Positions 13,601 through 32,265 of a stretch of 45,308 nucleotides of DNA are shown here, in pieces. Under the pieces are notes generated by a model that saw only the letters and a program-made list of their open reading frames with translations, was not told where the DNA came from and did no database searches. The DNA lies in assembly GCA_016794725.1 (NCBI GenBank), contig JAEUGZ010000222.1, positions 1 through 45,308 on the forward strand, given 5' to 3'. Numbering within the stretch: the first letter of the stretch is position 1; each line of letters starts with the position of its first letter. Position numbers and translations under genes: made by a program. Source of the stretch: Opitutaceae bacterium (GTDB taxonomy: Bacteria > Verrucomicrobiota > Verrucomicrobiia > Opitutales > Opitutaceae).

Positions 13601-15472
13601 GCGTATCCACTGCCGGTACTTGGCCGGCACCCGTTCCCAGGCGACCGCGGGTGATTCATTCGACTCCCAGACCAGGCTCCCGCCCTTCTTCAGTCCCTCC
13701 AGCGGATTGGTGTGCGTGAAGGCCTTGGGGTCGCAGCACAGCACCACGTCGACATGGTTGAGCTCGCAGTTCACCTTGATCTGCGAGGGGGCGACGGTGA
13801 GGTAGTAATTGGTGGGGGCGCCCTTTTTCTCGGACCCGTATTTCGGGTTGGCCATGACGTAGAGCTTCTCCACGAGAAAACCGTCGGCGTCGTAGGTCGG
13901 GTTCTGTTCGGAGATGAAGGTGCCGAGGTCGCCGATGATCGAACCGAGGTTCTTGCCGGTCGTGATCATGCCCCAGCCGCCGATCGAGTGAAACCGCACG
14001 GCGATGGCCCCTTCCGGCAGGAGCGAGGGGGTGTCCTTGCTGATGACGGCGTACGGGTGGTCGACGCCGAGCACGAAGAAGGTTTCGCCGTCGCTGGCCT
14101 TGGCGCCGTCCTTGCGGTGGGTCTGCCCGATGACGAATTCGTAGGCGCCCAGCGTGTGTTCGGGGCGGAAGTCGCGGGAACCGATACCATAGGCGCCGCG
14201 GAACAGGCGGGGCGTCTCCTCGGGGGTCAAGGCGGGCAGCGCTCCGCCGAACCGGGTGACCTCGTTGGCTTTGCCCAGGGCGACGCGGATGTCACGCGCC
14301 AGCGGGTTGTCGCCGGACAGGCCTTCGTCGGTGCGCTCGAGAATGATGACGTTTTTCTTGCCGCGCAGTGCGTTGATGATGGCAGCCTCGGGAAACGGGC
14401 GGATGACGTTGACGTGGATGGAGCCGACCTTGGCGTTGCGCTGGTCGCGCAGGTAGTCGCAGGCCGCCTCGATGTTGTCGGCCGCGCAGCCGAGCGAAAC
14501 GAACACGGTGTCGGCATCGCTCGTCTTGTACTGCTGGATCAGGCCGTAGTGCCGTCCAGTCAGCTCGCCGAATTTGGCGCAGGCCTCCTCGAGCATCGGA
14601 AGGATGTACTCGTTGAAGTTGTTCCGGCGCGCGACGACGCCGTTCATGTGATGTTCCTGATTCTGGACCGGCCCGAGCAGCACCGGGTTCTTCGGGTCCA
14701 TCATCTGCGGCACCCGCCGGCGCCGGGGGCCGAACAACTCGCGTTGGGCCGGGGTCGGGCAGTCGATCTGGTCCTCGGCTCCACCCAGGTACTCCCGCAG
14801 GAACTCCGCCTCCGGGGCGAGGTACATGCGCTCGCTGTGGGTGGTGAGCATGCCGTCCTGGATGTTCATGCCGGGATTGAGCGAGAGCTCATTGACCCGG
14901 CGGAGGATGATGGCCTGGTCGGCGGCCTGCTGGGCGTCCTTGGACATCAGCATGGTCCAGCCGGTGTCGAGTGCGGCGTAAAAATCGTCGTGACCGCAGT
15001 GCACGTTCAGCGCCTGTTTGGTCAGGGCGCGGGCGCCGACCTCGAGGACCATGGTCGAGAGTTTGCCGGGCGCGTGGTAGTACTGCTCCATCGCGTAGAC
15101 AATGCCCTGACCCGAGGTGAAATTGCAGGTGCGGCGGCCCGTCACCGCAAAGGCGGTGGCGCCGCCCTGGGCTGCATGTTCACCCTCGGTCTCGACTGCG
15201 ACTTTTTGCTGCCCCCAGACATTGAGTTCACCCTGGGCGTAGGAAGCTTGGTAGATTTCGCCGCCTTCGGTGGAGGGGGTGATGGGGTAGAACACGCCGC
15301 CCTCGGTGATGCGGGTCTCGACGTATTGGGTGACCAATTGGTTGCCGTTGCAGGTGACGCGGATGCCTGGGTACTTCGGTTTCACACCCGAGGGCGCCGA
15401 TTGCGGCGGGGACGACGGGGAGGCAACGGGTTGCGACGCGGGGGCCGATAGTCCTACAGCGGAGTGACTCAT
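10697..15472 (-). CDS. nifJ: Pyruvate:ferredoxin (flavodoxin) oxidoreductase, long form
   Basis: This cytoplasmic enzyme oxidises pyruvate with CoA to acetyl-CoA and CO2 and reduces ferredoxin or flavodoxin. All functional parts are in one chain: the pyruvate-binding N-terminal domain ('GGVFYPITPSTEGGE'), the gamma domain ('FHSIGGWGMITTGKNLG'), two ferredoxin-like clusters at about residues 820-832 ('CTQCMECITACP') and 953-964 ('CKGCGECVQVCG'), and a C-terminal thiamine-diphosphate domain with 'CAGCGE' near 1035 and 'GDGALGDIGFQNVS' near 1264. I choose the ATG at 15472 (1,591 residues); a GTG start at 15511 would add 13 residues of no clear merit. At 1,591 residues it is about 400 longer than the usual ~1,170-1,200, with extra sequence spread over several domains, including a Lys/Glu-rich helical insert in the thiamine domain. 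Its neighbour upstream on the same strand is the Ehr-type complex, a plausible user of reduced ferredoxin. Confidence 0.94.
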   Translation of the reverse strand: MSHSAVGLSAPASQPVASPSSPPQSAPSGVKPKYPGIRVTCNGNQLVTQYVETRITEGGVFYPITPSTEGGEIYQASYAQGELNVWGQQKVAVETEGEHAAQGGATAFAVTGRRTCNFTSGQGIVYAMEQYYHAPGKLSTMVLEVGARALTKQALNVHCGHDDFYAALDTGWTMLMSKDAQQAADQAIILRRVNELSLNPGMNIQDGMLTTHSERMYLAPEAEFLREYLGGAEDQIDCPTPAQRELFGPRRRRVPQMMDPKNPVLLGPVQNQEHHMNGVVARRNNFNEYILPMLEEACAKFGELTGRHYGLIQQYKTSDADTVFVSLGCAADNIEAACDYLRDQRNAKVGSIHVNVIRPFPEAAIINALRGKKNVIILERTDEGLSGDNPLARDIRVALGKANEVTRFGGALPALTPEETPRLFRGAYGIGSRDFRPEHTLGAYEFVIGQTHRKDGAKASDGETFFVLGVDHPYAVISKDTPSLLPEGAIAVRFHSIGGWGMITTGKNLGSIIGDLGTFISEQNPTYDADGFLVEKLYVMANPKYGSEKKGAPTNYYLTVAPSQIKVNCELNHVDVVLCCDPKAFTHTNPLEGLKKGGSLVWESNESPAVAWERVPAKYRQWIRDNEIRIFILPGFDIARKATSQTELQLRMQGNSFLGGFFRVSPFLKTFGITEEQFHKVVHKQYVKKFGRFGDAVVTSNMTVMTEGFSRVSEIQYGGSNDPDRSSMRNPLLKPIGDHQIIPTAGCSASGCSSIPMPADQGGRAPLQTLAKFDSEFRAGLGYHQPAGALASVGIMGAGSGATQSKYVARRETPVYIAENCTQCMECITACPDTALPNAAQEITTVIKTAVNNYVTDVADRLAFGAEVVALEARARTKMNESVKAKSNVPFKDIIGAEVNALATVSDKGKAEFNRIIGKLPLAYSNVPAIFRSLEAKTPGAGGLFSIFVSDLCKGCGECVQVCGDHDALRMVRETEELNADLTTAQVFSRLLPDTPQKFLGLYNDADAANSREAALRNHLMVRRNYEALVSGDGACAGCGEKSILRAVASVTEAHMRPIYHRKADRLRAKADRFEKEGPAKLAALKARDPKEYELFRKTFAHVIAGLGGENDADTAQRIAAHEARHGALTDEQIIGGIATVMRTDAFNHKELQAVDGRRANGMSVMMMGASTGCNTVYGSTPPANPHPYPWMNSLFQDGATISWLMAESTILHHSRRSVVPERLADALLDRATGVATEADYFTLTHLDDAGMTELEIRELPKVWVIGGDGALGDIGFQNVSKVILQNRPNVKILMLDTQVYSNTGGQNSDSSTMLGGYDMNQFGVASQGKLIEKKNVAEAFTSGHGSPFVAQVSMANSAKLYKAMLDGLEYRGTAFFQCYTTCQPEHAVADNMSADQAKMVRDCRGMPEFVFNPRKGETAQESFELKGNPTLDRDWWRTKYASTGEEYNFTVAHWGITEGRFRKHVKAIKAEDAAKLTLLDDQVMFITQDDVQHRRVFDPKHRSFVKNFGSYIQAEEHGKIAYYAVSRQMVLFAVERRKSWRMLQSKAGVVNKDYLAQKALLAKIDKGELPLADAKARVRELLAAEFAAAK

Positions 15473-15505
15473 AAGTAAGAAGCAAGGGAGCGTAGACGCG
15501 TGGGG

Positions 15506-15523
15506 GGACACCGTCAGGTGTCC
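15506..15523. promoter_or_regulatory. Perfect 7-4-7 inverted repeat upstream of nifJ
   Basis: GGACACC-GTCA-GGTGTCC ends 34 bases before the chosen nifJ start codon and lies in the gap between nifJ and the divergent small gene. It could be an operator or a 5' untranslated hairpin. Nothing in the sequence says which, and the regulator is unknown. Confidence 0.4.
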
Positions 15524-15670
15524 TTGCGGTGGGGGCAGACCGTCGCGCGAGAGTGAAAAGGATTCCGGGCCGATTCAAAGGCAAAAGCGGCTCATGAATG
15601 GAATTGGCGATTCGGTGGGTGCGATCGCAAACCGGCGTGACATCGGAAGGGCCCCTCGTACCTTCAGAGC

Positions 15671-15874
15671 ATGAATCCGGGAGCCCCCTCACCCGATCCG
15701 GTGCCGTCACTGTCGGCGGCGCCGGTGCCCTTCGCATCGACTCCCGAGCCGGGTGCGTCCGGAGCCGAGGCGGGCGCACCCGTGGTGCCACCGAGTCCGC
15801 TCACGCCGGAGGAGCAGATGGCGTTGTTTGAGAAGGAGCTGAAGGAGACGGACTGGGGACATCAGCCCTGCTGA
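15671..15874 (+). CDS. Small unknown protein with DWGHQPC C-terminus
   Basis: This is a 67-residue open frame that I do not recognise as a named family. The first ~42 residues are a Pro/Ala/Ser-rich, probably disordered stretch. The last ~24 are quite different: an amphipathic helix-like segment 'LTPEEQMALFEKELKETD' ending in WGHQPC, with His and Cys that could bind metal or a cluster. The change from low-complexity to ordered, charged sequence argues that it is a real gene. It is divergent from nifJ (198 bp between starts) and ends 16 bases before the convergent end of the complex's small-subunit gene. I see no strong ribosome-binding site. It may be an accessory protein for the oxidoreductase, but that rests only on position. 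Confidence 0.5.
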   Translation: MNPGAPSPDPVPSLSAAPVPFASTPEPGASGAEAGAPVVPPSPLTPEEQMALFEKELKETDWGHQPC

Positions 15875-15890
15875 GGGGGTGGGGCCTTGA

Positions 15891-16718
15891 TCAGACGGAT
15901 CGGTCGGATCCGTCGGATCGTCGAGCTGCTTCGCCTGCCCCGAGCCGCCCCAGCAAGCGCAACAACCCATCCAGAATCGTCAGCGGATGGGGCGGGCAGC
16001 CGGGAAGGTAGAGGTCGACTGGCACGACCGCGTCGGCACCTCCCTTCACCTCCGGGTGGCCGACAAACGGGCCCCCGGCGATGGCGCAGGCACCGACGGC
16101 GATCACCAGTTTGGGGGCGGGCACGGCGTCCCAGGTCTTGCGCAGGGCCAGGTCCATCCCCCGCGTCACCGGCCCGGTGATGAGGAGTCCATCCGCATGC
16201 CGGGGCGAGGCGACAAACTGGATACCAAAGCGGCCGAGGTCCCAGCCGATGGTATTGAGGACGTTGAGGTCCGACTCGCAGGCATTGCAACCGCCGGCGC
16301 TGACCTGACGCAACCTTAGCGAACGGCCAAAGAGTTTCCTCAAGCGTTCATCCAGCTGCCGGGCCAGGCGGAGTTCCTTTCCCTGAGCATCGCCGAGGAC
16401 GAGATCCTCCCGCCGCCGCACGGCGAGACGGTGATCGCCGGTCTGGGTGATGGCGCCGGTGGGGCACGCGGTGACGCAGGCCGAGCAGAACAGGCAGCGT
16501 CCCAGGTCGAGCGACACGGGCGCGCCGGGCGAGGAGCGCACGATGGCCTCCGTCGGGCAGACCGGAAGGCACTCCGTGCAGCCTTCGCGGCAGGCCCCCG
16601 GGTCGAGCCGCAGTCCGCCGCCGTGACGATCCGGCAACGCCGGGGCCGGACCTGCCGGGTATGCCATGGTTTCGCAGCCGCGCCGGGCACGATGGAGAAG
16701 GGGATCGAGCAAGCCCAT
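15891..16718 (-). CDS. Hydrogenase-4/complex I-like small subunit with fused 2[4Fe-4S] ferredoxin domain (HyfH-HyfI fusion)
   Basis: This 275-residue protein combines two subunits that are separate in E. coli hydrogenase 4 (HyfH and HyfI). The N-terminal part has two cluster motifs: C43-x3-C47-x2-C50-x3-C54-P, with one residue more than the classical spacing, and C75-x2-C78-x2-C81-x3-C85-P, which is classical. The C-terminal part is the NuoB/HyfI-like fold with C144 and C147 ('GGCNACES'), C211 ('VGACAIAGG') and C241 ('LPGCPPHP'), all four ligands of the proximal N2-type cluster. The start at 16718 lies 5 bases after the large-subunit stop; in-frame sequence further upstream overlaps that gene and looks unrelated. 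It is the last gene of the nine-gene operon. An intact cluster chain implies real electron transfer, most likely from ferredoxin, even though the large subunit has no NiFe site. Confidence 0.9.
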   Translation of the reverse strand: MGLLDPLLHRARRGCETMAYPAGPAPALPDRHGGGLRLDPGACREGCTECLPVCPTEAIVRSSPGAPVSLDLGRCLFCSACVTACPTGAITQTGDHRLAVRRREDLVLGDAQGKELRLARQLDERLRKLFGRSLRLRQVSAGGCNACESDLNVLNTIGWDLGRFGIQFVASPRHADGLLITGPVTRGMDLALRKTWDAVPAPKLVIAVGACAIAGGPFVGHPEVKGGADAVVPVDLYLPGCPPHPLTILDGLLRLLGRLGAGEAARRSDGSDRSV

Positions 16719-16723
16719 GGTGT

Positions 16724-18208
16724 TCAGAGGTCGAAGCCGCAGTACGAGAGGTTGAAGCTCTTGTTGTTGACCGGGAAATCCGAGATGGCCTGACCGCGAA
16801 GGGCGAGGGCCAGTCCCATCCAATTGTGAAACGAGGGGTCGACGATCTTGTAGCCGGCGAAACGTCCCGCGTGATCCGTCAGGGCGACATGGCAGACCTC
16901 GCCACGCCAGCCTTCGACCAAAGCGATCGCCAGGGCGTCGGGTGCAGGCGGAGGAAGCGGTTCTTCGATCGGCCCCTCGACTCCGGCCGCCAGTTGGGTG
17001 CGAAGAAACTCCCCCGAACGCTGGATCTCCAGCGCCCGCACCCGGGCGCGGGCGAGGACATCGCCGGTGGGCCAGACCGCGACCGGAGCCTGGGCGAATC
17101 GGTACCATCCCGTCGGGTGATCAAAGCGGGCGTCGCGCACCAGCCCGCAGGCCCGCGCCGCCGGACCGACCAGCCCGATCTCGGTGGCCTGGCGCGACGA
17201 GACGGTGCCGATGCCTTCAAACCGCGATTGCACCGAAGGCGACTCCCAGAGCCAGGTGGCCGCCTGATCGGCGTCCCGCACCGCGGTGGCGAGTCGGTTG
17301 GCCAGGGTGGAAAGGCGGGCGGCGTCGAGATCGTACCCGCAACCGCCAGCCCGGACCAGGCCGCGACCGAACCGGTTGCCGCAGATCAGGGCGGTCAGGT
17401 TCAGGAAGTCGCCCCGGATCTTGCCGCAGGCCGAAGCGGTGGGAAGAAAGGCGACGTCGTTCGCCAGGGCTCCGAGGTCGCCGGTGTGATTCGCGAGACG
17501 CTCCAATTCCAGGCCGATCGCGCGTATCCACTGGGCCCGCAACGGCGCCTCAACACCTGCGAGGGCGGCGCGGAGCACGGTGTGGGCGGTGGCGTGGGCG
17601 ACGGTCGAATCGCCCGCGATGGTCTCCATCTGCGCCAGGGTGGCCCGGTGCGGACCGCCACGCAGGGCGCGTTCGATCCCGCGATGCTGGTAGCCGAGTG
17701 CGATCTCCAGGTGCAGGACTTCCTCGCCCTCGCACTGGAAACGGAAATGTCCCGGCTCGATGATGCCGGCGTGCACCGGCCCCACCGCCACTTCGTGCAC
17801 CTGCGCGCCGTTGACGCGGAAGTACTCACCCTGGAGGGGGTGACTTCCGGCGACGGCACGAACCGGTTTGAGCCAGGGATGGCCCTCGGGTGTCACCTGG
17901 TGCTGTTCCCAGACTTCTCGCTCAAACAGGTGGGCCTGCGGGTGAAGGAGGGTCAGCGCTGGATACGACCGGTGCACCGGCGTGCTCCGCGCCACCGCCA
18001 GCGAGGCGTCGGCATCGAAGGCGATCACGCTGACGAGCACGACCCCCGCTTTGCTTGACTGCCCGAACCAGGCGCAGAGTCGCCCGCCCTCGCTCAATTC
18101 CCGGGCGGTCGCGGTGACGAGGTCCTCCGGCGACCAGGCGGGAACTTCGGACCAGGGCAGGGCCGAGCCGTTGGGCAGCAGGGCGAAAGGCGTGGTGGTC
18201 GAACTCAT
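16724..18208 (-). CDS. Hydrogenase-4 large-subunit homologue (NuoCD-like) lacking NiFe ligands; Ehr-type
   Basis: This 494-residue protein matches the HyfG/HycE pattern: a NuoC-like N-terminal domain ('LFEREVWEQHQVTPEGHP', about residues 94-111) fused to a NuoD-like domain ('LGYQHRGIERAL', 171-182). In true [NiFe] hydrogenases of this family, two CxxC pairs bind the metal centre. Here the first pair is replaced by 'METIAGDSTVAHA' (194-206) and the C-terminal pair by 'NNKSFNLSYCGFDL' (481-494), with only one cysteine and wrong spacing. It therefore cannot carry a normal NiFe site and should not be called a hydrogenase. This loss defines the energy-converting-hydrogenase-related (Ehr) group, whose reaction is not established. 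The start overlaps the upstream subunit's stop by ATGA. What replaces hydrogen as electron acceptor or donor, or whether the complex is purely an ion translocator, is open. Confidence 0.9.
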   Translation of the reverse strand: MSSTTTPFALLPNGSALPWSEVPAWSPEDLVTATARELSEGGRLCAWFGQSSKAGVVLVSVIAFDADASLAVARSTPVHRSYPALTLLHPQAHLFEREVWEQHQVTPEGHPWLKPVRAVAGSHPLQGEYFRVNGAQVHEVAVGPVHAGIIEPGHFRFQCEGEEVLHLEIALGYQHRGIERALRGGPHRATLAQMETIAGDSTVAHATAHTVLRAALAGVEAPLRAQWIRAIGLELERLANHTGDLGALANDVAFLPTASACGKIRGDFLNLTALICGNRFGRGLVRAGGCGYDLDAARLSTLANRLATAVRDADQAATWLWESPSVQSRFEGIGTVSSRQATEIGLVGPAARACGLVRDARFDHPTGWYRFAQAPVAVWPTGDVLARARVRALEIQRSGEFLRTQLAAGVEGPIEEPLPPPAPDALAIALVEGWRGEVCHVALTDHAGRFAGYKIVDPSFHNWMGLALALRGQAISDFPVNNKSFNLSYCGFDL

Positions 18209-19647
18209 GGCAGGGCGACAAGTTGGGCCACCGCGGCCGACCAGAGGGACTCCAGCAGCGCGGGCGGGTAGAGTCCCATCCAGGCTGAGAGCGCGAGCAG
18301 GAGCAGGGACGGCAGGATGACTCCCGCCGTTTCGGAGAAATGCACCCGGGGCGTGGCCGCCCGGCTTCGGGGCGGCCCGTAGGCGACCCCGAGTACGACC
18401 CGGGCCAGACCGAAGAAGGCGAAGAGCAGGCCGAGCAGAAACACGGCGGTCACGACCGTGTGACCCCCGTCAAACGCGGCCCGCAGGATGCGGAGTTCAC
18501 TGAAGAAGATGCCGAAGGGTGGGCAGGCGGTGACCGCGAAGAGCCCGGCGACAAACAGGCGGGTCGACCGCGGGGCAATCCGGGCCAGGCCACGCACGTC
18601 GTCCATCGACGCGGACCCGGCGGAGCGCCGGAGGTTGCCGGCGCTGAGAAAGAGCGAACCCTTGGTCAGGCTGTTGGTCCAGACGTGGAACAGCGCCGCG
18701 CCGATCCCCGGGGCCCCGAGGGCGGCGCCGACGCTGAGAATCCCCATGTGTTCGACACTCGAATACGCCAGCATGCGTTTGAAGTCGCGGGTCCCCAGGA
18801 GAAAGAGGGAGGCGACCACCACCGAAAAGAGTCCGATGCAGAGGAGCGTCAGGTCCGCCATCGGTCCCTCGCCGGCGGCGCCCAGCACCGAGCGCACCCG
18901 CAGCAGGGCGACAAAGGCCACCGTCGTCACCCCGCCCGCCAGGATCGCCCCAACCAGCCCGGGCGCCTCGCCGTAGGCGTCGGGCTTCCACGTGTGCATG
19001 GGTGCCAGTCCCATCTTGGTGCCATAGCCCACGAGGAGGAGCACCCAGGCGATGAGCAGCCAGGGACGCGACAAGGTGGCTCCCTGGTGGGCGAGTGCGT
19101 GGAAGGTCAGGTCGCCGCTGCCGTTGCCCTGCAGCGAGGCGTAGCCGAGGCAGAACGAGCCGAGCAGCGAAAGCGCGATGCCGGTGCCGCCAACCAGCAG
19201 GTACTTCCAGGTCGCCTCGAAAGCCCGCGGTGTCCGGTTGAAGTGAAGCAGTGGCACCGCGGCCAGGGTCACGCCTTCCGTGGCGATCCAGAGCACGCCG
19301 AGGTGACGGGCCATCAACCCGGCGCTCATCAGACCGATGACCGCGAGCAGGGTGGAGACAAACACGCGGTTCGGCCGCTCGCCCCGCACGCGCAGGTAGG
19401 GCACCCCGTAGGCGGAGCAGATGAGGAAGAGCAGCGAAACCACCGGCAGCACGGCGCGCGCGACCGCGTCGAAGCCGAACCACTCCCCGTCCGTCACCTC
19501 CGGCGGGTGCACCATCAGCACCCACGCGAGGACCGTGTGGGGCGCGGCAATCGCGGGAAGGAACCACGGACGCATCCGGTCCGACGGCCAGATCGCCGCC
19601 AGCGTCGCGCCCGCGAGCGGCAGGAGGATGAGCAGGAGCGGGATCAT
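18205..19647 (-). CDS. Antiporter-like membrane subunit, HyfF-like
   Basis: This 480-residue polytopic protein belongs to the NuoL/M/N-Mrp antiporter-like family and corresponds to HyfF in hydrogenase 4. About 14 hydrophobic helices are evident. Signature segments are 'VLWIATEGVTLAAVPLL' with the TM5-type glutamate, 'LVGYGTKMGLAPMHTWKPDA' with the TM7-type lysine and the following histidine, 'LLGTRDFKRMLAYSSVEHMG', and 'FHVWTNSLTKGSLFL' with the TM12-type lysine. These charged residues form the ion path in characterised relatives. The gene overlaps both neighbours by ATGA. Together with the second antiporter-like subunit encoded upstream it gives the complex two potential ion channels; whether H+ or Na+ is moved cannot be read from the sequence. 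Confidence 0.92.
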   Translation of the reverse strand: MIPLLLILLPLAGATLAAIWPSDRMRPWFLPAIAAPHTVLAWVLMVHPPEVTDGEWFGFDAVARAVLPVVSLLFLICSAYGVPYLRVRGERPNRVFVSTLLAVIGLMSAGLMARHLGVLWIATEGVTLAAVPLLHFNRTPRAFEATWKYLLVGGTGIALSLLGSFCLGYASLQGNGSGDLTFHALAHQGATLSRPWLLIAWVLLLVGYGTKMGLAPMHTWKPDAYGEAPGLVGAILAGGVTTVAFVALLRVRSVLGAAGEGPMADLTLLCIGLFSVVVASLFLLGTRDFKRMLAYSSVEHMGILSVGAALGAPGIGAALFHVWTNSLTKGSLFLSAGNLRRSAGSASMDDVRGLARIAPRSTRLFVAGLFAVTACPPFGIFFSELRILRAAFDGGHTVVTAVFLLGLLFAFFGLARVVLGVAYGPPRSRAATPRVHFSETAGVILPSLLLLALSAWMGLYPPALLESLWSAAVAQLVALP

Positions 19648-20288
19648 TCGCGCAGCACGGTCAGTTTCCGGGTGTCGAGCGTGTCGAAGGCCCGCTGGAT
19701 GCGGTCGACGATGATGCCGATGACGAACACCCCCACGGTGACGTCGAGGAGGATGCCGGCCTCGACGAGCAGGGGGGTGGTGTGGATCAGGAGCAGTCCG
19801 AAGAGGTAGATGCCGTTTTCAAGGATGAGGTAACCGCAAACCTGTGACAGCGCCTTGTTCCGTCCGATCAGCAGGATGAAGCCGGTGAGCATGGACGCCA
19901 GCGCGCCCGGCACCAGGAGCGAGCCCGCATGTTCCGGCCGCAGTGGCAGAATCCGGGCCAGACCGACGGCGGCGATGGTGCCGCCCGCCCCGAGGAGCAG
20001 GGAAGGCACAAAACCGATGAGCGGGTCCGTCTCCCGCTCAATGTTGGCCGCCCGCATGGCGCGGCCGAGGAGGAGCGGGATGACCCAGCCCTTGCCGACG
20101 ATGGTGGCGACGGCGACGAGCGTGACCCACGGGCTGAATTCGTGCGACAGCAGGAAAGGCATCGCGCCCAGGGCCATGCCCTGGAAGGAGACGGCCCGGA
20201 TGAGCGAGGACACCCGCCCGCTCCCGAGGGCCAGCAGATTGAGTCCCATCGCGACGGCGATGAGCAGGTTCAGACCCGAGGCGTTCAT
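19644..20288 (-). CDS. HyfE-like (NuoK-type) membrane subunit
   Basis: This 214-residue protein has six or seven hydrophobic helices and matches hydrogenase-4 component E in length (HyfE is ~216) and in its hallmark 'CGYLILENGIYLFGLLL' (about residues 150-166), where the buried glutamate corresponds to a conserved acidic residue of NuoK-type subunits. The C-terminal tail 'DRIQRAFDTLDTRKL' is cytoplasmic and charged. In complex I-like enzymes this subunit connects the quinone- or redox-coupled module to the antiporter-like subunits. It overlaps the NuoH-like gene and the HyfF-like gene by ATGA. Its presence, which separates hydrogenase-4-like from hydrogenase-3-like assemblies, fits the rest of the operon. 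Confidence 0.9.
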   Translation of the reverse strand: MNASGLNLLIAVAMGLNLLALGSGRVSSLIRAVSFQGMALGAMPFLLSHEFSPWVTLVAVATIVGKGWVIPLLLGRAMRAANIERETDPLIGFVPSLLLGAGGTIAAVGLARILPLRPEHAGSLLVPGALASMLTGFILLIGRNKALSQVCGYLILENGIYLFGLLLIHTTPLLVEAGILLDVTVGVFVIGIIVDRIQRAFDTLDTRKLTVLRE

Positions 20289-21193
20289 CCGGCGCCTCCC
20301 TTCCAGGCCACCAGCAGGGCGAACAGGCAGAGCAGGAAGGCGGTGGTGAGGAGCAGCGGCACCTTGCGGAAGGCGAGCCGGGCGATCAGGGACTCCACCA
20401 GTCCGATACCGACGACGACTCCGAGCACGCCTCCCGCCAGCAGGGCCGCCGCCGCCGGCGCGGGCAGGTTGGCGACGGGCAGCACGGCCTGCACGAGCAG
20501 GACGGAGAAGAGCAGCAGCTTCACCGAGGCGCCGTGCAGGATGGCGGCGAGGGGCGGACCGCTGTGGTCGAGCACCATCACTTCGTGGATCATGGTCAGT
20601 TCCAGGTGGGTGTTGGGGTCGTCGAACGGCACCCGGCAGTTCTCCGCGAGCAGCACCGTGAAAAGCCCGGCGGCGAGCAGCGCCGAGCCGGTGCCAACCG
20701 TGGGAGCGAGCATCTGGTTGAGCGCGAGGCTGTGGGACTGCACGCCGAGCGCGAGCAGGGCGGAGAGGATCGAGCCCTCGGCGAGGACGGCGAAACTGAC
20801 CTCGCGGACCACCCCCATGCCTTCGAACGCCGAACCGGTTTCCATCGCGGCCCAGGCGGTGGCGAACCGGGCGAGGGCCAGCAGATAAACCAGGGCGAGC
20901 GCGTCACCCGAAAACCCGAGGACCGTGCCCGCGGGCCCAAGCGGGAGCAGCAGGGCCGCGACCACCACCGCGACCCAGGCCACGGCGGGGCCGAGAATGA
21001 AACCTGGGGAGGCGAGCGAACTCATGACGACCTGCTTGCGCCACAGTCGCGCCAGGTCGTAGTAGAGCTGCAGCAGGGGCGGACCGCGTCGTCCGGCCAC
21101 CCAGGCCTTGATCCGGTTGATCAGGCCGGGAACGAGCGGCGCGAGCAGGAGCCAGAAGGCCAGCCGCAGGGGTAGATCCCACAGGAGGCTCAT
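20285..21193 (-). CDS. HyfC-like (NuoH-type) membrane anchor subunit
   Basis: This 302-residue protein is the NuoH/HyfC-type subunit that docks the soluble redox arm to the membrane. It has about eight helices. The conserved cytoplasmic loop 'GRRGPPLLQLYYDLARLW' (about residues 34-51) and the acidic loop 'ENCRVPFDDPNTHLELTM' (near 183-200) are both present; in complex I and its relatives these loops line the entry to the quinone-like cavity and the proton-coupling channel. The length is close to E. coli HyfC (~315). Start and stop overlap neighbouring genes by ATGA. Retention of these coupling loops in a complex without a NiFe site suggests that ion translocation is still driven from the soluble arm. 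Confidence 0.93.
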   Translation of the reverse strand: MSLLWDLPLRLAFWLLLAPLVPGLINRIKAWVAGRRGPPLLQLYYDLARLWRKQVVMSSLASPGFILGPAVAWVAVVVAALLLPLGPAGTVLGFSGDALALVYLLALARFATAWAAMETGSAFEGMGVVREVSFAVLAEGSILSALLALGVQSHSLALNQMLAPTVGTGSALLAAGLFTVLLAENCRVPFDDPNTHLELTMIHEVMVLDHSGPPLAAILHGASVKLLLFSVLLVQAVLPVANLPAPAAAALLAGGVLGVVVGIGLVESLIARLAFRKVPLLLTTAFLLCLFALLVAWKGGAG

Positions 21194-23151
21194 GGCCGGC
21201 CTCCTTGCACGAGCACGATCAGGCCGAGCGCGGCCAGACCGATGACAATGTAGAGGATGTAGGACTGCAGCCGGCCGTGCTGCAGCCGCCGCACCGCGGT
21301 CGAGACCCTCAGGACCTGCCGGGCCACCGGCGTCACCACGCCTTCGAGCACGGTCTCACGCGGGCGATCGAGGATGAACGCCCGGTCCGGCAGCGGACCG
21401 CGCGGGCGGCGCTGGCTGCGCTCCGGTCGCAGGAACCAGGTGAACCAGCCGCCGACCGTGCCGCCCATCGCGCCCGCCGTGTATTGCATGCGCCGCGACG
21501 GCTGGGCGTAGCCGCAATCCCAGGTCGGGCCGCGGGTGACGCCGAGGTGGTGGACGCGACGCCAGAGGGCGAAGGCGACACCGACGAGCACCAAGGCGAG
21601 GATCAGCTGGAAGCGTCCGAGCGAGATCAGCGGCACCCGCACGGCTGCGGTCCCGGTGTCGAACGGACGCCACGCTTCGCTGGCCCGCGCCAGGATGGGA
21701 GCCACGAAGGCGGGAGCCAGACCGAGCAGGAGCACCGCGCCGGCCAGCCCAAAGGTCGGGGCACTCCGCCAGCGGTCCGGTTCATGCAGCGCGTGGGATG
21801 GACTTGAACGGGGAGCTCCCAGAAACACCAGGGCGTTGGCCTTGGTGAAAGTGGCGAGTGCCACCGCGCCGGCGAGCGCGAGGGCGATCACGGCGGGTCC
21901 CGCGGCCCAGCCGGCGGGACCATGGCTGGCGACCGCATCGAAGAGACCGAGGTAAACCAACCACTCCCCGACCAGCCCCGCCAGTGGTGGCAAGCCCGAC
22001 ATCGAAGCCGAGCCGACGAGAAAAGCGACGGCGGTGAAGGGGAGCGCTCGCCAGAGTCCCCCCATGCGGCCCAAGTCCCGGGTGCCGGCGGCGTGCACCA
22101 CGGTTCCGGCGCCAAGGAAGAGCAGCGCCTTGGCGAACCCATGGGTCCAGACATGCAGCAAGGCGCCGGCAAGCGCGAGTCGACCCCAGTCGGCCGCCGG
22201 TTCTCCGGCGGCGACGAGGGCTCCACCCAGGCCGATGAGAATGACGCCGATGTTCTCCACGGAACAGTAGGCCAGCAGCCGTTTCAGGTCGGTCTGGACC
22301 AGTGCGAACACGATGCCGGCCAGCGCTCCGACCGCGCCGAGGCCGAGGATGACCCAGCCGGCGCTGGCGGGGACCGGCAGCCAGCCGCTGAAGCGCAGCA
22401 ATCCGTAGATGCCCAGCTTGAGGGTGACGCCGGAGAGCAGGGCGGACACGTGGCTGGGTGCGTTGGCGTGAGCCGACGGAAGCCAGACGTGGAGCGGAAA
22501 GAGCCCCGCCTTCAACCCAAAGCCGAAGAGTGCGAGCCAGAAGAGCGGCGCGAGGTCCGTGCGCTCCCGCAGGGGCCCCAGGTCCCAGCTGCCCGTGGCC
22601 GATGCGAGCAGGGTGAAAAAGGCGAAGAGCGCGATGGTACCGGCGTGTGACGCGGCCAGGTAGAGCCAGCCCGCCTGGCGCACGGCAAGGCGGCGCCGGT
22701 CCAGGGTAATGAGAAAATAGGCGCAGACCGTGAACAGTTCCCAGCCAATGAGGAAGTGGAGCCCGTTGGAGTTGATGAGGACGACGGCGAGATGAAAAAT
22801 CAGGCCATTCCACCAGAGGCGTCCCCGGGCCGGCGCGGAGGGATCGATTCCGTCATTGAGAGTCAGATACGTATGGGAGTAGGCGGTTCCGGCCAGACCG
22901 ACCCCGGCGAGCAGGATGAGAAACAAGGCACTGAGCGCATCGAGCCGCAGGTGCAGGGCCTGTCCCCCGACCGGAAATCCGCTGCGCCAGTCCCAGTCCG
23001 GTTGCAGACCGAATCCGACCGCGACGCCGGCCGCGCCCAGCGCGACGCCGGCCGCGAGGGTCAGCGCGACCCAAACCGCCGGCGAGCGCCGGCCGGCAAG
23101 GGCGCCCAGACCGAGCGCGACCAGAGCGAAGAGTAGCAGCGGTCCGATCAT
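21190..23151 (-). CDS. Antiporter-like membrane subunit, HyfB-like
   Basis: This 653-residue polytopic protein is the larger antiporter-like subunit, homologous to HyfB (~670) and NuoL. Key segments are 'LIGWELFTVCAYFLITLD' with the TM5-type glutamate, 'FGFGLKAGLFPLHVWLPSAH' with the TM7-type lysine and histidine, 'VQTDLKRLLAYCSVENIGV', and 'LHVWTHGFAKALLFLGAG' with the TM12-type lysine. A C-terminal extension with Arg-rich cytoplasmic stretches ends in a last helix near residues 630-650. The start overlaps the stop of the HTH-EIIA gene by ATGA, so translation of the membrane complex is directly tied to that regulatory protein. DabB of inorganic-carbon pumps is also a NuoL homologue, but no DabA partner is present and the full set of hydrogenase-4-like subunits is, so the HyfB reading is preferred. 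Confidence 0.92.
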   Translation of the reverse strand: MIGPLLLFALVALGLGALAGRRSPAVWVALTLAAGVALGAAGVAVGFGLQPDWDWRSGFPVGGQALHLRLDALSALFLILLAGVGLAGTAYSHTYLTLNDGIDPSAPARGRLWWNGLIFHLAVVLINSNGLHFLIGWELFTVCAYFLITLDRRRLAVRQAGWLYLAASHAGTIALFAFFTLLASATGSWDLGPLRERTDLAPLFWLALFGFGLKAGLFPLHVWLPSAHANAPSHVSALLSGVTLKLGIYGLLRFSGWLPVPASAGWVILGLGAVGALAGIVFALVQTDLKRLLAYCSVENIGVILIGLGGALVAAGEPAADWGRLALAGALLHVWTHGFAKALLFLGAGTVVHAAGTRDLGRMGGLWRALPFTAVAFLVGSASMSGLPPLAGLVGEWLVYLGLFDAVASHGPAGWAAGPAVIALALAGAVALATFTKANALVFLGAPRSSPSHALHEPDRWRSAPTFGLAGAVLLLGLAPAFVAPILARASEAWRPFDTGTAAVRVPLISLGRFQLILALVLVGVAFALWRRVHHLGVTRGPTWDCGYAQPSRRMQYTAGAMGGTVGGWFTWFLRPERSQRRPRGPLPDRAFILDRPRETVLEGVVTPVARQVLRVSTAVRRLQHGRLQSYILYIVIGLAALGLIVLVQGGRP

Positions 23152-23855
23152 GCGGCGGGTCGGCCCGTGCCGGGAAAGGGCGCCGCGAGCGCGGCGAGGA
23201 TCTGATCGTCCGGAGCGGCCTGTTCAAGCAATCCGCGCAACGGGCCGCGGGTGAACTGACGGCTGAGCAACCCGAGCAACTCGAGGTGGGCGCGGGGCGA
23301 AGGGGCAATGAAGAAGACGAGGCGCAGGACCGGCTGGCCATCCGGCGGCGGCTCGGTCAGCGGCAGCGGCTCGCGCAGCAGGATCAGGGCGGCGGTGCCG
23401 GAGTCGCGTCCCAGCGCCACGCGGCTGCTCGGGTGCGGCAGCGCGAAACCGCTCCCGACCGGGGCCCAGGTGATGCCCCCGGGCGCCCGCAGCCGTTGCG
23501 CGAGCATCGCCCGGACCGGCGGGGTGGCGGCGGGCAGGCGGGAGACGACCCCATCCAGGAGATCGAGAAGCCCGGAAGGCGCCACGTCCCGCCAAATACC
23601 CCCGCTCCGCACCATCCGGGTCAGCCGGCCACCGTCGCCACTCGCCTCGTCACTCGTCGCCCCGCGGGGACCGGCAAGAAAGCCGACCTGCGCGGCCAGA
23701 CCCCGCTCCGCCGCCCACTGGGCCACCTGGGCGCGGTCAAAGAGCAGCCGCCCGTGGTCCGAGGTGTGAGGCAGTCCGTCGTGACGAATCCAGTCGTCGA
23801 CCCGGCGTTCCGGGACTCCAAGGGATTCGGCAAGCTGGACGAGGGTGAGGTACAT
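23148..23855 (-). CDS. Excisionase/MerR-type HTH fused to PTS EIIA (fructose/nitrogen-type) domain
   Basis: This 235-residue protein joins two domains. Residues 1-55 ('LTLVQLAESLGVPERRVDDW', then 'HGRLLFDRAQVAQWAAERG') form a helix-turn-helix of the excisionase/MerR type. After a linker, residues ~95-230 resemble the PTS EIIA type-2 domain; the motif 'GSGFALPHPSSR' places the phospho-accepting histidine at H141, as in EIIA-Fru and PtsN. No EIIB, EIIC, HPr or EI gene is nearby, so it is more likely a regulator read out through phosphorylation than part of a sugar transporter. It sits between the SulP gene (96-bp gap) and the Ehr complex (ATGA overlap with the HyfB-like gene). A role in tuning transporter or complex activity, or expression, to the PTS phosphorylation state is an inference. 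Confidence 0.82.
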   Translation of the reverse strand: MYLTLVQLAESLGVPERRVDDWIRHDGLPHTSDHGRLLFDRAQVAQWAAERGLAAQVGFLAGPRGATSDEASGDGGRLTRMVRSGGIWRDVAPSGLLDLLDGVVSRLPAATPPVRAMLAQRLRAPGGITWAPVGSGFALPHPSSRVALGRDSGTAALILLREPLPLTEPPPDGQPVLRLVFFIAPSPRAHLELLGLLSRQFTRGPLRGLLEQAAPDDQILAALAAPFPGTGRPAA

Positions 23856-23951
23856 GGGACTGCCCGCGGGGCGGGAAGTGGGAAGGGGGAGGAGTGACGT
23901 GCGAAAGGAGACGGGGCCCGTCGGGCGAGGTGGGAGAGAGCTCGATACGGA

Positions 23952-25805
23952 TCAAGTGCGGGGATTGGGGGAGACCGGAGGGTGAGGGGCGGACTTTTCC
24001 GGCGGGGTGTCGAGACGGGTGAGGATAGACTGCGCGCGTTCGAGCGCGCCCGCGAGTTCCTTGCGGGCGGCGTCGATGGCGTGACGTTCCGTGGCAAGTG
24101 ATTCACGCGACTCCGGTGCGTCGTTTTCCGGAGGCAATCCGAGGATCTGACGGGCGCGGGCCAGGGCGGCGGCGATGTGCGGACAGACGTTTTCCTCGCC
24201 GAGACGGTCGATGAACCCGGCGTTGATCATGACCGAGAGCGGCTGCGTGTGCGGGGCGCTCAGAATCAGGTGCTTGCCCTTCGCGCGCAGCTTGATGCGG
24301 AGGTCCTCGAGCGCCTGAAGTCCGGTCGCATCCATGGCCAGCACCTTGCGCACCCGCAGGATCAGGACATCGGGCTCCTGCCGGGCCCGCTTCAATTCGT
24401 CGTCCAGCTTGTCGACCATGCCAAAGAAAAAGGCGCCGAAGATCCGGAAGATGAGCACGCCCTCCGGAACTTGCCGCCCGACGAGCGAGTGATGCGATCC
24501 CTCGGTTTCGGTGGTTTCGTCGACCGCCGTGATTTGCGAGGTTTCGGCGATGCGTTTGACCATGAGCAGGGCGGCGAGCACCACGCCCACCTCCACCGCG
24601 AGTGTGAGGTTGGTCAGGACGGTGAGGGCGAAGGTGGCGAGAAAGATGGAGGAGTCACTCAGCGGCCAGCTGGCGAGCCGGGTGAACTGTTTCCACGAGA
24701 CCATGCGAAACGCCGCCACGACGAGGATGGCGCTAAGGGTGGCGAGCGGGATGTTCCCGAGGTAGGGTGCGGCCACGAGCAGGACGATCAGCAGCAGCGC
24801 CGAGTGCACCAGCCCGGCGACGGGCGTGCGCGCCCCGGAACGGACATTGAGCACGGAGCGGGCGACGGCGCCGGTGACCGGAATGCAGCCAAAGAGAGGT
24901 CCCACCAGGTTGGCCAGTCCCTGCCCGATCAACTCCTGATTGGAGTCGTGACGGTCGTCGATCAGACCGTCGGTGACGACGGCGCAGAGCAGCGCCTGCA
25001 TCGCCACGAGCAGGGCGATGGTGAAGGCCGGCTGGATCAGATCGCGCAGCAGCGCGGAATCGACCGTTGGAAGGACCAACGCCGGCAGTGCACGCGTAAA
25101 GGTGCCGAACTCTGAACCCAGGGTGGCGATCTGCCACTGCTCCTGCAGGTGGAAGAAGGGCACCGCAATCATCGAGGCCACCAGCCCGACCATGGCGCCG
25201 GGAATGATGCGAGAGAGGCGTTTCGGCCAGAGTCCGATCAGGGTCACCGAGGCCAGCGAGAGCAGCACGGTCGGACTGTGGATCGACGAGAGGTGTTCAA
25301 AGAGGGCCCGGATCTTGCCAATGAAATCGATCGGCATCGTTTCCACGTCCAGTCCGAGGAAGGGCTTGATCTGGGAACTCAGAATCAGGACTGCGATACC
25401 CTTGGTGAAGGCGCGGGAAACTGGATACGGGATGTAGCGGATGATCGAGCCGAGTTTGGCCGCCCCCATCAGACAGAGCATGCCCCCGGCCATGATCGTG
25501 CAGAGCAACAGCGCGGGAAGGCCATGGCTGTGGATGATGCCGCCGGTGATGATGACAAACGCTCCGGTCGGACCGGCGATCTGCACCCGCGAGCCGCCGA
25601 ATGCGGCCACCAGCGCGCCGCCGATGATCGACCCGTAGAGTCCCTGCTCCGGCTTGACCCCCGAGGCGATGGCGAAGGCGAGCGAAAGCGGAAACGCCAG
25701 CGTCATGACGTTCACCCCGGCCAGGGTGTCACGCAGCAGCTGCGCCCGCGTCATTCCGTGGAGCGCCTCAAGCAGCTTGGGACGAAACGGGAGTGAGAAG
25801 ATCAT
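23952..25805 (-). CDS. SulP-family anion transporter with STAS domain
   Basis: This 617-residue protein is a SulP/SLC26-type inner-membrane anion transporter. The membrane part (about residues 20-420) has the family signature 'VMTLAFPLSLAFAIASGVKPEQGLYGS' region near TM1-3 and 'VQIAGPTGAFVIITGGII' in TM3. The STAS domain follows (about 450-560), with 'VLAMDATGLQALEDL' at the position where anti-sigma-antagonist relatives carry a phosphorylatable Ser or Thr; here the central residue is T. A charged C-terminal extension of ~55 residues with a predicted helix is unusual. Substrates in the family include sulfate, bicarbonate, dicarboxylates and chloride, and the sequence alone does not decide. 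It overlaps the upstream zinc-ribbon gene by ATGA and is followed by HTH-EIIA and the Ehr complex, which suggests joint function. Confidence 0.92.
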   Translation of the reverse strand: MIFSLPFRPKLLEALHGMTRAQLLRDTLAGVNVMTLAFPLSLAFAIASGVKPEQGLYGSIIGGALVAAFGGSRVQIAGPTGAFVIITGGIIHSHGLPALLLCTIMAGGMLCLMGAAKLGSIIRYIPYPVSRAFTKGIAVLILSSQIKPFLGLDVETMPIDFIGKIRALFEHLSSIHSPTVLLSLASVTLIGLWPKRLSRIIPGAMVGLVASMIAVPFFHLQEQWQIATLGSEFGTFTRALPALVLPTVDSALLRDLIQPAFTIALLVAMQALLCAVVTDGLIDDRHDSNQELIGQGLANLVGPLFGCIPVTGAVARSVLNVRSGARTPVAGLVHSALLLIVLLVAAPYLGNIPLATLSAILVVAAFRMVSWKQFTRLASWPLSDSSIFLATFALTVLTNLTLAVEVGVVLAALLMVKRIAETSQITAVDETTETEGSHHSLVGRQVPEGVLIFRIFGAFFFGMVDKLDDELKRARQEPDVLILRVRKVLAMDATGLQALEDLRIKLRAKGKHLILSAPHTQPLSVMINAGFIDRLGEENVCPHIAAALARARQILGLPPENDAPESRESLATERHAIDAARKELAGALERAQSILTRLDTPPEKSAPHPPVSPNPRT

Positions 25806-26254
25806 GGAGCGGAGGGCGGAGCCGGAGGCGCCGGTTCATCGGCGCGGGCCGGTGCGGGTTCCTGGGCCGGTCGATGCAGAGCGCTGCGCCGGGCGGCCGG
25901 GCGCACGACGGAGCCCCCGGTTTCCAGTTCTGGCCCGTCGGCGTTCCAGATGAACACCCCACAGGCGGGACAAACGCCAAAGCAGCCCGGCGCCGCGACT
26001 TCGCGCAACAAGGGGCCAGAGAGGGGATGATGGCAGGCGCCACATTCCCCCATCCGGATTGCGGCGACGCTGACCTGCCCGCGACCCGACAACTGGTCAT
26101 GGTGCGCAAGGATCGACTGCGGCAGCCGGGCCCGCACGCTGTCGATCTGGGCCTGAAGCAGTCCACGCTCCGAACTCCCGGCCGGGACCCGGCGGGTTTC
26201 CTCCGTCAGCCAATTGAGCGAACGCAATTGGCTCAGGACTTCGGCAGCGTACAT
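25802..26254 (-). CDS. Small zinc-ribbon protein, first gene of the SulP-Ehr operon
   Basis: This is a 150-residue protein with a helical N-terminal half (about residues 1-60, 'EVLSQLRSLNWLTEETRR') and a likely C4 zinc ribbon formed by C71-x2-C74 ('GECGACHHPL') and C95-x2-C98 ('VCPACGVFIW'). The remaining ~45 residues are Ala/Pro/Arg-rich and probably disordered. The layout (coiled-coil-like helix, then ribbon) resembles C4-type zinc-ribbon proteins of unknown or nucleic-acid-related function; I cannot name a precise family. A good ribosome-binding site, AGGA, sits 7 bases before the ATG. Its stop overlaps the SulP start by ATGA, so it leads the operon. It may help regulate or assemble the transporter, but that is inference. 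Confidence 0.72.
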   Translation of the reverse strand: MYAAEVLSQLRSLNWLTEETRRVPAGSSERGLLQAQIDSVRARLPQSILAHHDQLSGRGQVSVAAIRMGECGACHHPLSGPLLREVAAPGCFGVCPACGVFIWNADGPELETGGSVVRPAARRSALHRPAQEPAPARADEPAPPAPPSAP

Positions 26255-26324
26255 GGCGATGTCCTACCCTGCATGGCGAATGCCAGACGGGGGGATGGAT
26301 TCAGAGTTGCTGGAGGGGAGGGAG

Positions 26325-26430
26325 TTAGGTGATTTTACGGCATTGTTGTCGATCTGTTGTGCAATAAACGGATTGGATATGATCCAAAATTTGCACTCGA
26401 TCGTTCGAAAATTGCACGCCAGGGTAGGTC
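26325..26430 (-). promoter_or_regulatory. AT-rich putative promoter/operator of the SulP-Ehr operon
   Basis: This ~105-bp stretch is far less GC-rich than its surroundings. On the plus strand it contains a 6-3-6 palindrome TTGGAT-ATG-ATCCAA and three TTGCAC-like words: GTGCAA on one side of the palindrome and two TTGCAC on the other, the last two about 29 bases apart. It lies 70-175 bases before the zinc-ribbon start codon. I cannot fix a -10/-35 pair with confidence; a sigma-54 match was sought and is poor. Confidence 0.45.
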
Positions 26431-26618
26431 CGATGAAGCGCGCGGTGGGCTTGTTTCCAGCGTTGACGGTAGGCGGGGTCCCTGACCCCGCGGGCATAAT
26501 GACGCGAGCTGCGCGTGGTGGGGGGGCGATTGAAGCGAGGTGGATGAGGTGCCATCCGTGGGCGTCGCCTCGGCGGCTGGCACGCACCGTTTCGAGGCTC
26601 GGAGGGCCCGCGGTCCAG

Positions 26619-26727
26619 TTGGAGGTGGCCTCGGTGAGGCCGCGGCGGGACCGTCCCGGTCCCGCCTCCGCCCTCGGAATTCCCGGTGCGACGCCGATTT
26701 CCGCGGGGTCGTCGACCCCACCTCCAA
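26619..26727. repeat. Dispersed repeat, 'TTGGAGGTGG' family, copy 1
   Basis: The element is bounded by a perfect 10-bp inverted repeat, TTGGAGGTGG at 26619-26628 and CCACCTCCAA at 26718-26727. Inside are smaller palindromes such as GGCCTC-GGT-GAGGCC and GGGGTC-GTC-GACCCC. Two closely related copies in the opposite sense lie at 38299-38408 and 38422-38535. Confidence 0.8.
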
Positions 26728-26830
26728 CGGACACCGATCGCGGATCGCCGCCTGCGGTGCGCGGGCGTGCTACGGTGACCGGCCCGTGGCCGAATGCGAG
26801 ATTCCGCCCGCTCTCCGAAAGGCCGCGACC

Positions 26831-31907: not shown

Positions 31908-32265
31908 GCGGCGGGCGCGGATTGCACCCGGCACCGCGAATGCCGTCAACGGTGAAGCCGGAGACAGGTACGGAGGTCAGCGCGAAGACGCAAAGGCGTG
32001 AAGGTCGAACGCGAAGGAAAAGGCACGGGATGGGTGTCGGGCCCGGATGGGGAACGAGTTTCATGCTCCTTTCGGCTCGCCAAGTCTGTGCGGAGCGGTC
32101 TCTTAGGGGGCTGTCCAATCTCTGTCTCGTCTTGAATCGTTTCCAGCGCAGTCAGACATAGGTTCGGCTTTCCATGTTGTCGGTGCATCTCAAACTCTCC
32201 GGTTGGCCCGAGGGGCTTTGCCGTCGTCGGGGTGAAGCATGGGCGGCGAACGGTGGAGTAACACC
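31908..32265. other. Divergent gap between SLOG-SLATT and SIR2-TIR genes
   Basis: These ~360 bases hold no supported gene and must contain both divergent promoters. A degenerate copy of the 'GCGAAGGCGCAAAGG' repeat lies at 31977-32018. Around 32060-32200 the sequence is less GC-rich ('CTTGAATCGTTTCCAGCG', 'CAGACATAGGTTCGGC'), the best promoter candidate. I could not fix a specific site. Confidence 0.5.

Follow-up and report, generated by a model that had tools for sequence, protein, structure and literature searches.

The window analysed here is a 45,308-nucleotide stretch of DNA from an Opitutaceae bacterium (Verrucomicrobiota; contig JAEUGZ010000222.1 of assembly GCA_016794725.1), whose genome is 97.9% complete in 641 contigs. 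On its minus strand, from 26254 to 15891, nine genes encode, in 5′ to 3′ order, a zinc-ribbon-like protein (ZnR), a SulP anion transporter, a regulator in which a helix-turn-helix (HTH) domain is fused to an EIIA domain of the phosphotransferase system (PTS), and the predicted subunits HyfB, HyfC, HyfE, HyfF, EhrL and EhrS of an Ehr complex. The first-pass annotation had described these genes as one coupled operon with a single 96-bp gap, and the junction sequences bear this out, all nine genes being confirmed in position. Seven of the eight junctions are tight (six ATGA overlaps and one gap of 5 nt); the remaining one is a 96-nt gap in which an internal signal could sit.

25802..26254, minus strand: ZnR, small protein with two CxxC pairs, zinc-ribbon-like (translation)
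25802-25805, minus strand: ATGA overlap of ZnR and SulP
23952..25805, minus strand: SulP/SLC26 anion transporter with STAS domain (Pfam Sulfate_transp 6e-80, STAS 5.5e-13)
23856-23951, minus strand: 96-nt gap from SulP to HTH-EIIA, the sole loose junction
23148..23855, minus strand: HTH-EIIA(Ntr) regulator, P0003 (Pfam HTH_17 5e-7, PTS_EIIA_2 5e-6)
23148-23151, minus strand: ATGA overlap of HTH-EIIA and HyfB
21190..23151, minus strand: HyfB/EhrA-like NuoL-type antiporter subunit, HyfB2 type (Proton_antipo_M 2e-50; HyfB tree)
21190-21193, minus strand: ATGA overlap of HyfB and HyfC
20285..21193, minus strand: HyfC-like NuoH-type membrane subunit (NADHdh 9e-24)
20285-20288, minus strand: ATGA overlap of HyfC and HyfE
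19644..20288, minus strand: HyfE-like membrane subunit (weak Oxidored_q2; NCBIfam hydrogenase-4 membrane subunit 2e-21)
19644-19647, minus strand: ATGA overlap of HyfE and HyfF
18205..19647, minus strand: HyfF-like antiporter subunit (Proton_antipo_M 5.5e-47; NCBIfam hydrogenase 4 subunit F 1e-76)
18205-18208, minus strand: ATGA overlap of HyfF and EhrL
16724..18208, minus strand: EhrL, NuoCD/HycE-like large subunit (Complex1_49kDa 3e-29)
16719-16723, minus strand: 5-nt gap from EhrL to EhrS
15891..16718, minus strand: EhrS, 2x[4Fe-4S] ferredoxin domain fused to a NuoB-like small subunit (Fer4 and Oxidored_q6)

From the overlaps we infer that the nine genes are co-transcribed. The gene order is identical in locus L015, from a second genome of the genus, and about ten further genomes of the family have a matching order with an extra HyfB between SulP and EIIA; because the order recurs in this way, the operon is neither a chance arrangement nor a misassembly. 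The ratio of nonsynonymous to synonymous substitution rates (dN/dS) against L015 is 0.05-0.20 for the eight genes tested (0.09 for SulP; EhrS, whose gene is cut off in L015, was excluded), which indicates purifying selection and hence selected, working genes. The closest named Ehr locus is that of a Lacunisphaera metagenome-assembled genome (MAG), followed by those of other Opitutia MAGs. ZnR has no family match in Pfam or NCBIfam, and its homologues lie 5′ of Ehr in L015, L053, L094 and other loci, whether SulP is present or absent.

The six downstream genes are identified by homology as an Ehr complex, a membrane-bound iron-sulphur complex of the hydrogenase-4/complex I type without a NiFe centre. 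The whole set (HyfB-, HyfC-, HyfE- and HyfF-like membrane subunits plus a large and a small subunit) stands in one cluster, and this six-gene core is retained across loci of many phyla. In EhrL, whose nearest solved proteins are HycE, the Mbh large subunit and Nqo4, both CxxC pairs that ligate NiFe are absent from 13/13 aligned family members, the corresponding positions reading A-G-D-S/T and S-Y-C-G; the absence of the N- and C-terminal ligands rules out a group 4 [NiFe] hydrogenase. Respiratory complex I is ruled out as well, no NuoEFG NADH-oxidising module being found among the nine genes. EhrS, when aligned with MbhJ and HycG, keeps the four NuoB-type cluster cysteines and is fused to a HycF-like ferredoxin domain. 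Over the channel region HyfB can be aligned with two antiporter subunits, HycC and MbhH, and, as read from the alignment with MbhH, keeps the glutamate of transmembrane helix 5 (TM5) and the lysines of TM7, TM8 and TM12. Taken together, the NiFe-less large subunit, the kept cluster cysteines and the kept channel residues point to what would be, as the family is generally read, a redox-driven ion pump of the membrane.

Ehr complexes have been named in Geobacter (PMC7894505) and Nitrospira (PMC12342949, PMC10284858) and are widespread, without an established function (PMC12342949, PMC10284858). Those of Geobacter sulfurreducens (GSU0739-0745) and Nitrospira consist of the same NuoL-, HyfC-, HyfE- and HyfF-like, EhrL and EhrS set and also lack the NiFe ligands. 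The window operon differs from them in adding SulP and the zinc-ribbon gene, in having one NuoL-like HyfB instead of two, and in its EhrS, which is a ferredoxin-NuoB fusion. Since neither the window nor L015 has HyfB1 and the window copy falls in the HyfB2 group (tree, support 92), HyfB1 has probably been lost in this genus. The membrane and iron-sulphur subunits also align with those of formate hydrogenlyase and hydrogenase-4 (Hyc, Hyf) and of archaeal Mbh and Mbx, of which Mbx is a NiFe-less, ferredoxin-linked ion pump (PMC6349859). Unlike Hyc, Hyf and Mbh, the window complex lacks the NiFe-binding cysteines and so is not a hydrogenase, and its operon has no formate dehydrogenase.

Downstream of the operon and on the same strand lies a gene for a single-chain pyruvate:ferredoxin oxidoreductase (PFOR; 10697-15472, minus strand), and in genome G018 (L017) genes for a 2-oxoacid:ferredoxin oxidoreductase are divergent from SulP-Ehr. 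Such neighbours hint at ferredoxin as the electron donor of Ehr. As a conserved neighbour, PFOR or Kor was rejected.

Partners of Ehr across loci

Ehr loci were drawn from relatives, 288 phylum genomes, 80 named loci and 250 family genomes and annotated with profiles built from the window proteins; 127 had enough upstream sequence to be informative. HTH-EIIA lies in or beside Ehr in 90 of these 127, from at least seven phyla (Verrucomicrobiota, Planctomycetota, Thermodesulfobacteriota, Myxococcota, Fibrobacterota, Spirochaetota and Omnitrophota), and in 34/35 loci of the Opitutaceae type; it also stands beside Ehr in Geomonas limicola and Geobacter argillaceus. It was not found with Ehr in the few loci sampled from Acidobacteriota, Elusimicrobiota, Chloroflexota, Kiritimatiellota and Lentisphaerota. 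Its presence is clustered on the EhrL tree (16 changes vs 32 in shuffles), the pattern that an old partner, repeatedly lost or gained, should leave. Judged by this distribution, HTH-EIIA is a true, conserved partner of Ehr. Two loci, L052:5516-8899 and L104:1521-2950, have HTH-EIIA in two copies, placed ahead of the HyfB genes or between them.

The regulator itself consists of an N-terminal, excisionase-type HTH fused to the EIIA domain. The window copy matches PTS_EIIA_2 exactly at threshold (27.0 bits, cut-off 27), the model is matched by 34 of 36 HTH-EIIA copies, and a profile built from these 36 matches PtsN structures at 1e-22; PtsN is also the top structural match of the AlphaFold model (mean pLDDT 88.6). 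The catalytic-type His141 and His190, together with Asp172, are invariant in 93/93 copies from Ehr loci, a number in which some loci are counted twice under different handles. HPr and EI are each matched once in the source genome. Because the histidines are invariant, the domain is of the PtsN type and EI and HPr are both present, phosphorylation of HTH-EIIA via EI/HPr is plausible. With PtsN (EIIA-Ntr) the regulator has in common the EIIA fold and the conserved catalytic-type histidines, and it differs in its N-terminal HTH and its fixed linkage to Ehr.

SulP shows another pattern. It lies 5′ in the Ehr operon in 17/127 informative loci, only in those of the Opitutaceae type (15 of the 35 informative ones there), its history on the EhrL tree is one of patchy gain and loss (11 changes), and its commonest setting in Opitutaceae-type loci is the order SulP-HyfB1-EIIA-HyfB2-C-E-F-L-S. 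By this distribution SulP is a late, family-specific addition and not a defining part of Ehr. The first-pass annotation had suggested that transporter, regulator and redox complex form one machine or pathway, a view that would fail if the Ehr genes of relatives usually occurred without SulP and EIIA. EIIA proved to be mostly present and SulP mostly absent, so that the outcome is divided: EIIA and Ehr are a conserved pair, and SulP is an accessory of one family.

Where SulP of this kind does occur, it mostly goes with Ehr: of 22 carriers in the wider SulP group 20 also have Ehr, compared with 42 of the 250 genomes (hypergeometric 6e-16, uncorrected for relatedness). There is more than one way in which SulP is joined to Ehr, and two distinct Ehr types are involved. 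The second type, distant from the first (EhrL ~36% identical) and found in the family in L204, L205, L206 and L207, has ZnR 5′ in 4/4 loci and SulP in L205 and L206, and is without EIIA. A SulP-HyfB1 pair is present in L265 (G371) and L264 (G442); in G371 the pair stands apart from the EIIA-HyfB2-C-E-F-L-S core, which suggests that SulP and HyfB1 can form a unit. In other phyla, the SulP genes near Ehr (L104, L113 and L118) are of other types or in other positions, two of them with PII or cyclic-nucleotide-binding domains, and were not counted; the one in the myxococcotal MAG (L118:19075-21315) has a C-terminal cyclic-nucleotide-binding domain and lies ~7 kb downstream of EhrS. Histidine kinases adjoin Ehr in 12/128 loci, in mixed positions, and were rejected as neighbours of general occurrence.

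The coupling site of SulP

The window SulP shares with the SulP/SLC26 proteins DauA, BicA, SLC26Dg and AtSULTR4;1 the Sulfate_transp and STAS domains and the substrate-site arginine on TM10 (Arg316). It differs from them in having Gln270 in place of the TM8 Glu or Asp that has been linked to cation coupling (Asp in BicA and Glu in SLC26Dg, by alignment) and in scoring below the DauA and BicA cut-offs. Its best NCBIfam match is DauA, at 429.7 bits below the equivalog cut-off of 614, and it was rejected as a DauA dicarboxylate transporter on that ground; assignment to BicA was rejected because it reaches 260.8 bits against a cut-off of 880 and the position of the Na+-binding Asp on TM8 is Gln270.

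In most type-1 Ehr operons the SulP protein belongs to a single monophyletic clade (support 100/99; 15 rows from 12 distinct genomes), every member of which carries Gln at the coupling position. The family's SulP proteins from elsewhere than Ehr loci show Glu or Asp there in 24/24 rows, and within the set analysed Gln is confined to the one clade. Across the 250 family genomes 19 carry such a Gln-SulP (19/19 Gln), 17 of them also with Ehr, and in 14 of the 19 (two at contig ends) the gene immediately precedes HyfB1 or EIIA; in G359 it is convergent and downstream of EhrS, and in G371 it is the gene paired with HyfB1 away from the Ehr core. In AtSULTR4;1, the equivalent change, E347Q, leaves ~40% of the activity and hardly any response to a pH gradient, and most mammalian SLC26 exchangers and channels are without the coupling acid (PMC8298490). 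Since Gln270 occupies this site, and by analogy with AtSULTR4;1 E347Q, the window SulP may well work without coupling to H+ or Na+.

Flanking genes and promoters

Divergent from the operon is an NtrC-type response regulator of the sigma-54 class, so that the conserved block extends past 26254; the regulator stands at the same 5′ edge in L015, L053 and L094, and is kept next to ZnR also where SulP is absent (L053, L094). The open reading frame P0010 is antisense to it and was rejected as a gene. No sigma-70 promoter was found in 15400-26900, and the best score for a sigma-54 site 5′ of ZnR is equalled by 11% of shuffles. Further out lie three other genes, two of which belong to families (SLATT and nSTAND1 NTPase) that are often found in defence or signalling loci.

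26831-28348, plus strand: NtrC-type sigma-54 response regulator (Sigma54_activat 3.5e-63, Response_reg 8e-10)
28416-29903, plus strand: cytochrome c fused to a glucose/sorbosone dehydrogenase-type domain
30420-31949, minus strand: protein with two SLATT domains
33743-37003, plus strand: large nSTAND1 NTPase

A model for the operon and its alternatives

The reading that we favour, with a probability of about one half, is that Ehr is a PTS-controlled ion pump, probably fed by ferredoxin, to which the Opitutaceae have added a cation-independent anion exchanger or uniporter. The PTS phosphorelay would set the state of EIIA, which would act through its HTH on the output of the operon, possibly together with the divergent sigma-54 response regulator. 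Alternatively EIIA may bind the antiporter subunits, as unphosphorylated PtsN binds and inhibits the K+/H+ antiporter YcgO (PMC11808508). Either way it would match Ehr output to the supply of phosphoenolpyruvate or to the K+/Na+ state. Reduced ferredoxin, or a similar low-potential donor, would deliver electrons at EhrS, from where they would pass on to an acceptor, HyfB and HyfF moving H+ or Na+ outward during the transfer. SulP would carry its anion by exchange or uniport without co-transported H+ or Na+, the flux following the membrane potential or anion gradients and not spending the ion gradient built by Ehr; it might thereby serve charge or pH balance, or the exchange of a one-carbon, sulfate or dicarboxylate anion, at times when Ehr is made. 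The EIIA-Ehr link is supported by its conservation across phyla; all that speaks for the SulP role is the restriction of this transporter to Ehr genomes and its fixed Gln.

Several observations weigh against this model. SulP is missing from 20 of the 35 closest, Opitutaceae-type Ehr operons, and the 20/22 association (6e-16) carries no correction for relatedness. In three genomes (G350, G416, G436) Gln-SulP is unlinked to Ehr or present without it. Glu is kept in a second SulP group, whose members sit in Ehr operons of type 1 (G012, L098) and of type 2 without EIIA (L205, L206), so that SulP can associate with Ehr without having lost coupling. Ferredoxin is deduced as donor from the type of domain, PFOR or Kor adjoining Ehr in only 2/160 loci.

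A possible but less probable explanation is that SulP is merely a co-regulated nutrient transporter, for sulfate, a dicarboxylate or another anion, inserted 5′ of Ehr with no mechanistic link. This would account for its absence from most Ehr operons, for the one loose junction parting it from EIIA, for its patchy history on the EhrL tree and for the Gln-SulP genes without Ehr in G416 and G436; nevertheless, nearly all carriers of the SulP group have Ehr, the transporter is joined to two Ehr types and stays with HyfB1 off the core in G371, and a Gln fixed throughout the clade is not predicted by co-regulation alone. The first-pass annotation had proposed a machine for redox-driven uptake of an anion or bicarbonate controlled by the PTS state, which we consider unlikely. 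In the DAB complex, the vectorial hydration of CO2 is indeed driven by NuoL-like subunits (PMC13144422), the SulP family includes the bicarbonate carrier BicA, and in the DAB/MpsAB inorganic-carbon complexes a NuoL-like subunit stands beside a transport-related partner, as in the window operon. In a single case, a Planctomycetaceae contig (L113:3782-12371), genes for DabA, a DabB-like protein and a SulP that has a P-II domain come after EIIA-Ehr; DabA was found in no other surveyed locus. The window operon, in contrast to DAB/MpsAB, has electron-transfer subunits in place of DabA (PF10070), for which no match was found among its proteins; its SulP fails the BicA criteria by score and by the missing Na+-binding Asp, and SulP is dispensable in most Ehr loci. 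Nor was a carboxylating RuBisCO recognised in the source genome: its two RuBisCO-family proteins (L238 on C209, L239 on C69) have as best NCBIfam models OiaX and diketo-MTP-1-P enolase, none above cut-off, and look like RuBisCO-like proteins. Bicarbonate uptake driven by redox is thus not supported.

A more daring form of coupling, very unlikely in our estimate, would have SulP docked on the distal NuoL-like subunit, as the recurring SulP-HyfB1 pair might suggest, with ion movement by Ehr replacing the lost H+ or Na+ coupling and EIIA phosphorylation acting as the gate; if true, SulP would be the first member of SLC26 to be powered by an electron-transfer complex. About equally improbable is that SulP serves the operon not as a carrier but as a sensor of anions (transceptor). 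Escherichia coli DauA, its best NCBIfam match, is reported to double as a signal transducer with the DctA uptake system (PMC5703999), reduced transport could go with the lost coupling acid, and regulators flank SulP on both sides; but Arg316 and the STAS domain are kept, and the E-to-Q change in AtSULTR4;1 still leaves ~40% of the transport (PMC8298490). It is barely credible that Ehr is the functionless remnant of a hydrogenase and the operon inconsequential. The NiFe ligands are indeed absent, and missense changes arose in ehr genes after long anode growth in a study whose authors call the complex nonfunctional (PMC13194489). Strong purifying selection on every subunit tested, the six-gene core conserved in many phyla and the regulation of the Ehr proteins in G. 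sulfurreducens, where they are more abundant with formate (PMC7894505), all argue against decay.

As the first-pass annotation had supposed, no characterised system of this make-up was found in literature searches. A description of the HTH-EIIA fusion tied to Ehr, or of HTH-EIIA or SulP as a part of Ehr, was likewise not found in the open literature searched; an earlier mention of EIIA in subscription papers (a Geobacter hydrogenase survey, Coppi) is possible. A phosphorelay regulator tied to Ehr in at least seven phyla would provide a handle on the cue to which this complex responds, namely the state of the PTS. The Opitutaceae SulP, as a natural E-to-Q variant at a studied SLC26 site, may serve as a test of how carriers lose cation coupling, and also of whether the Ehr complex needs a partner anion flux.

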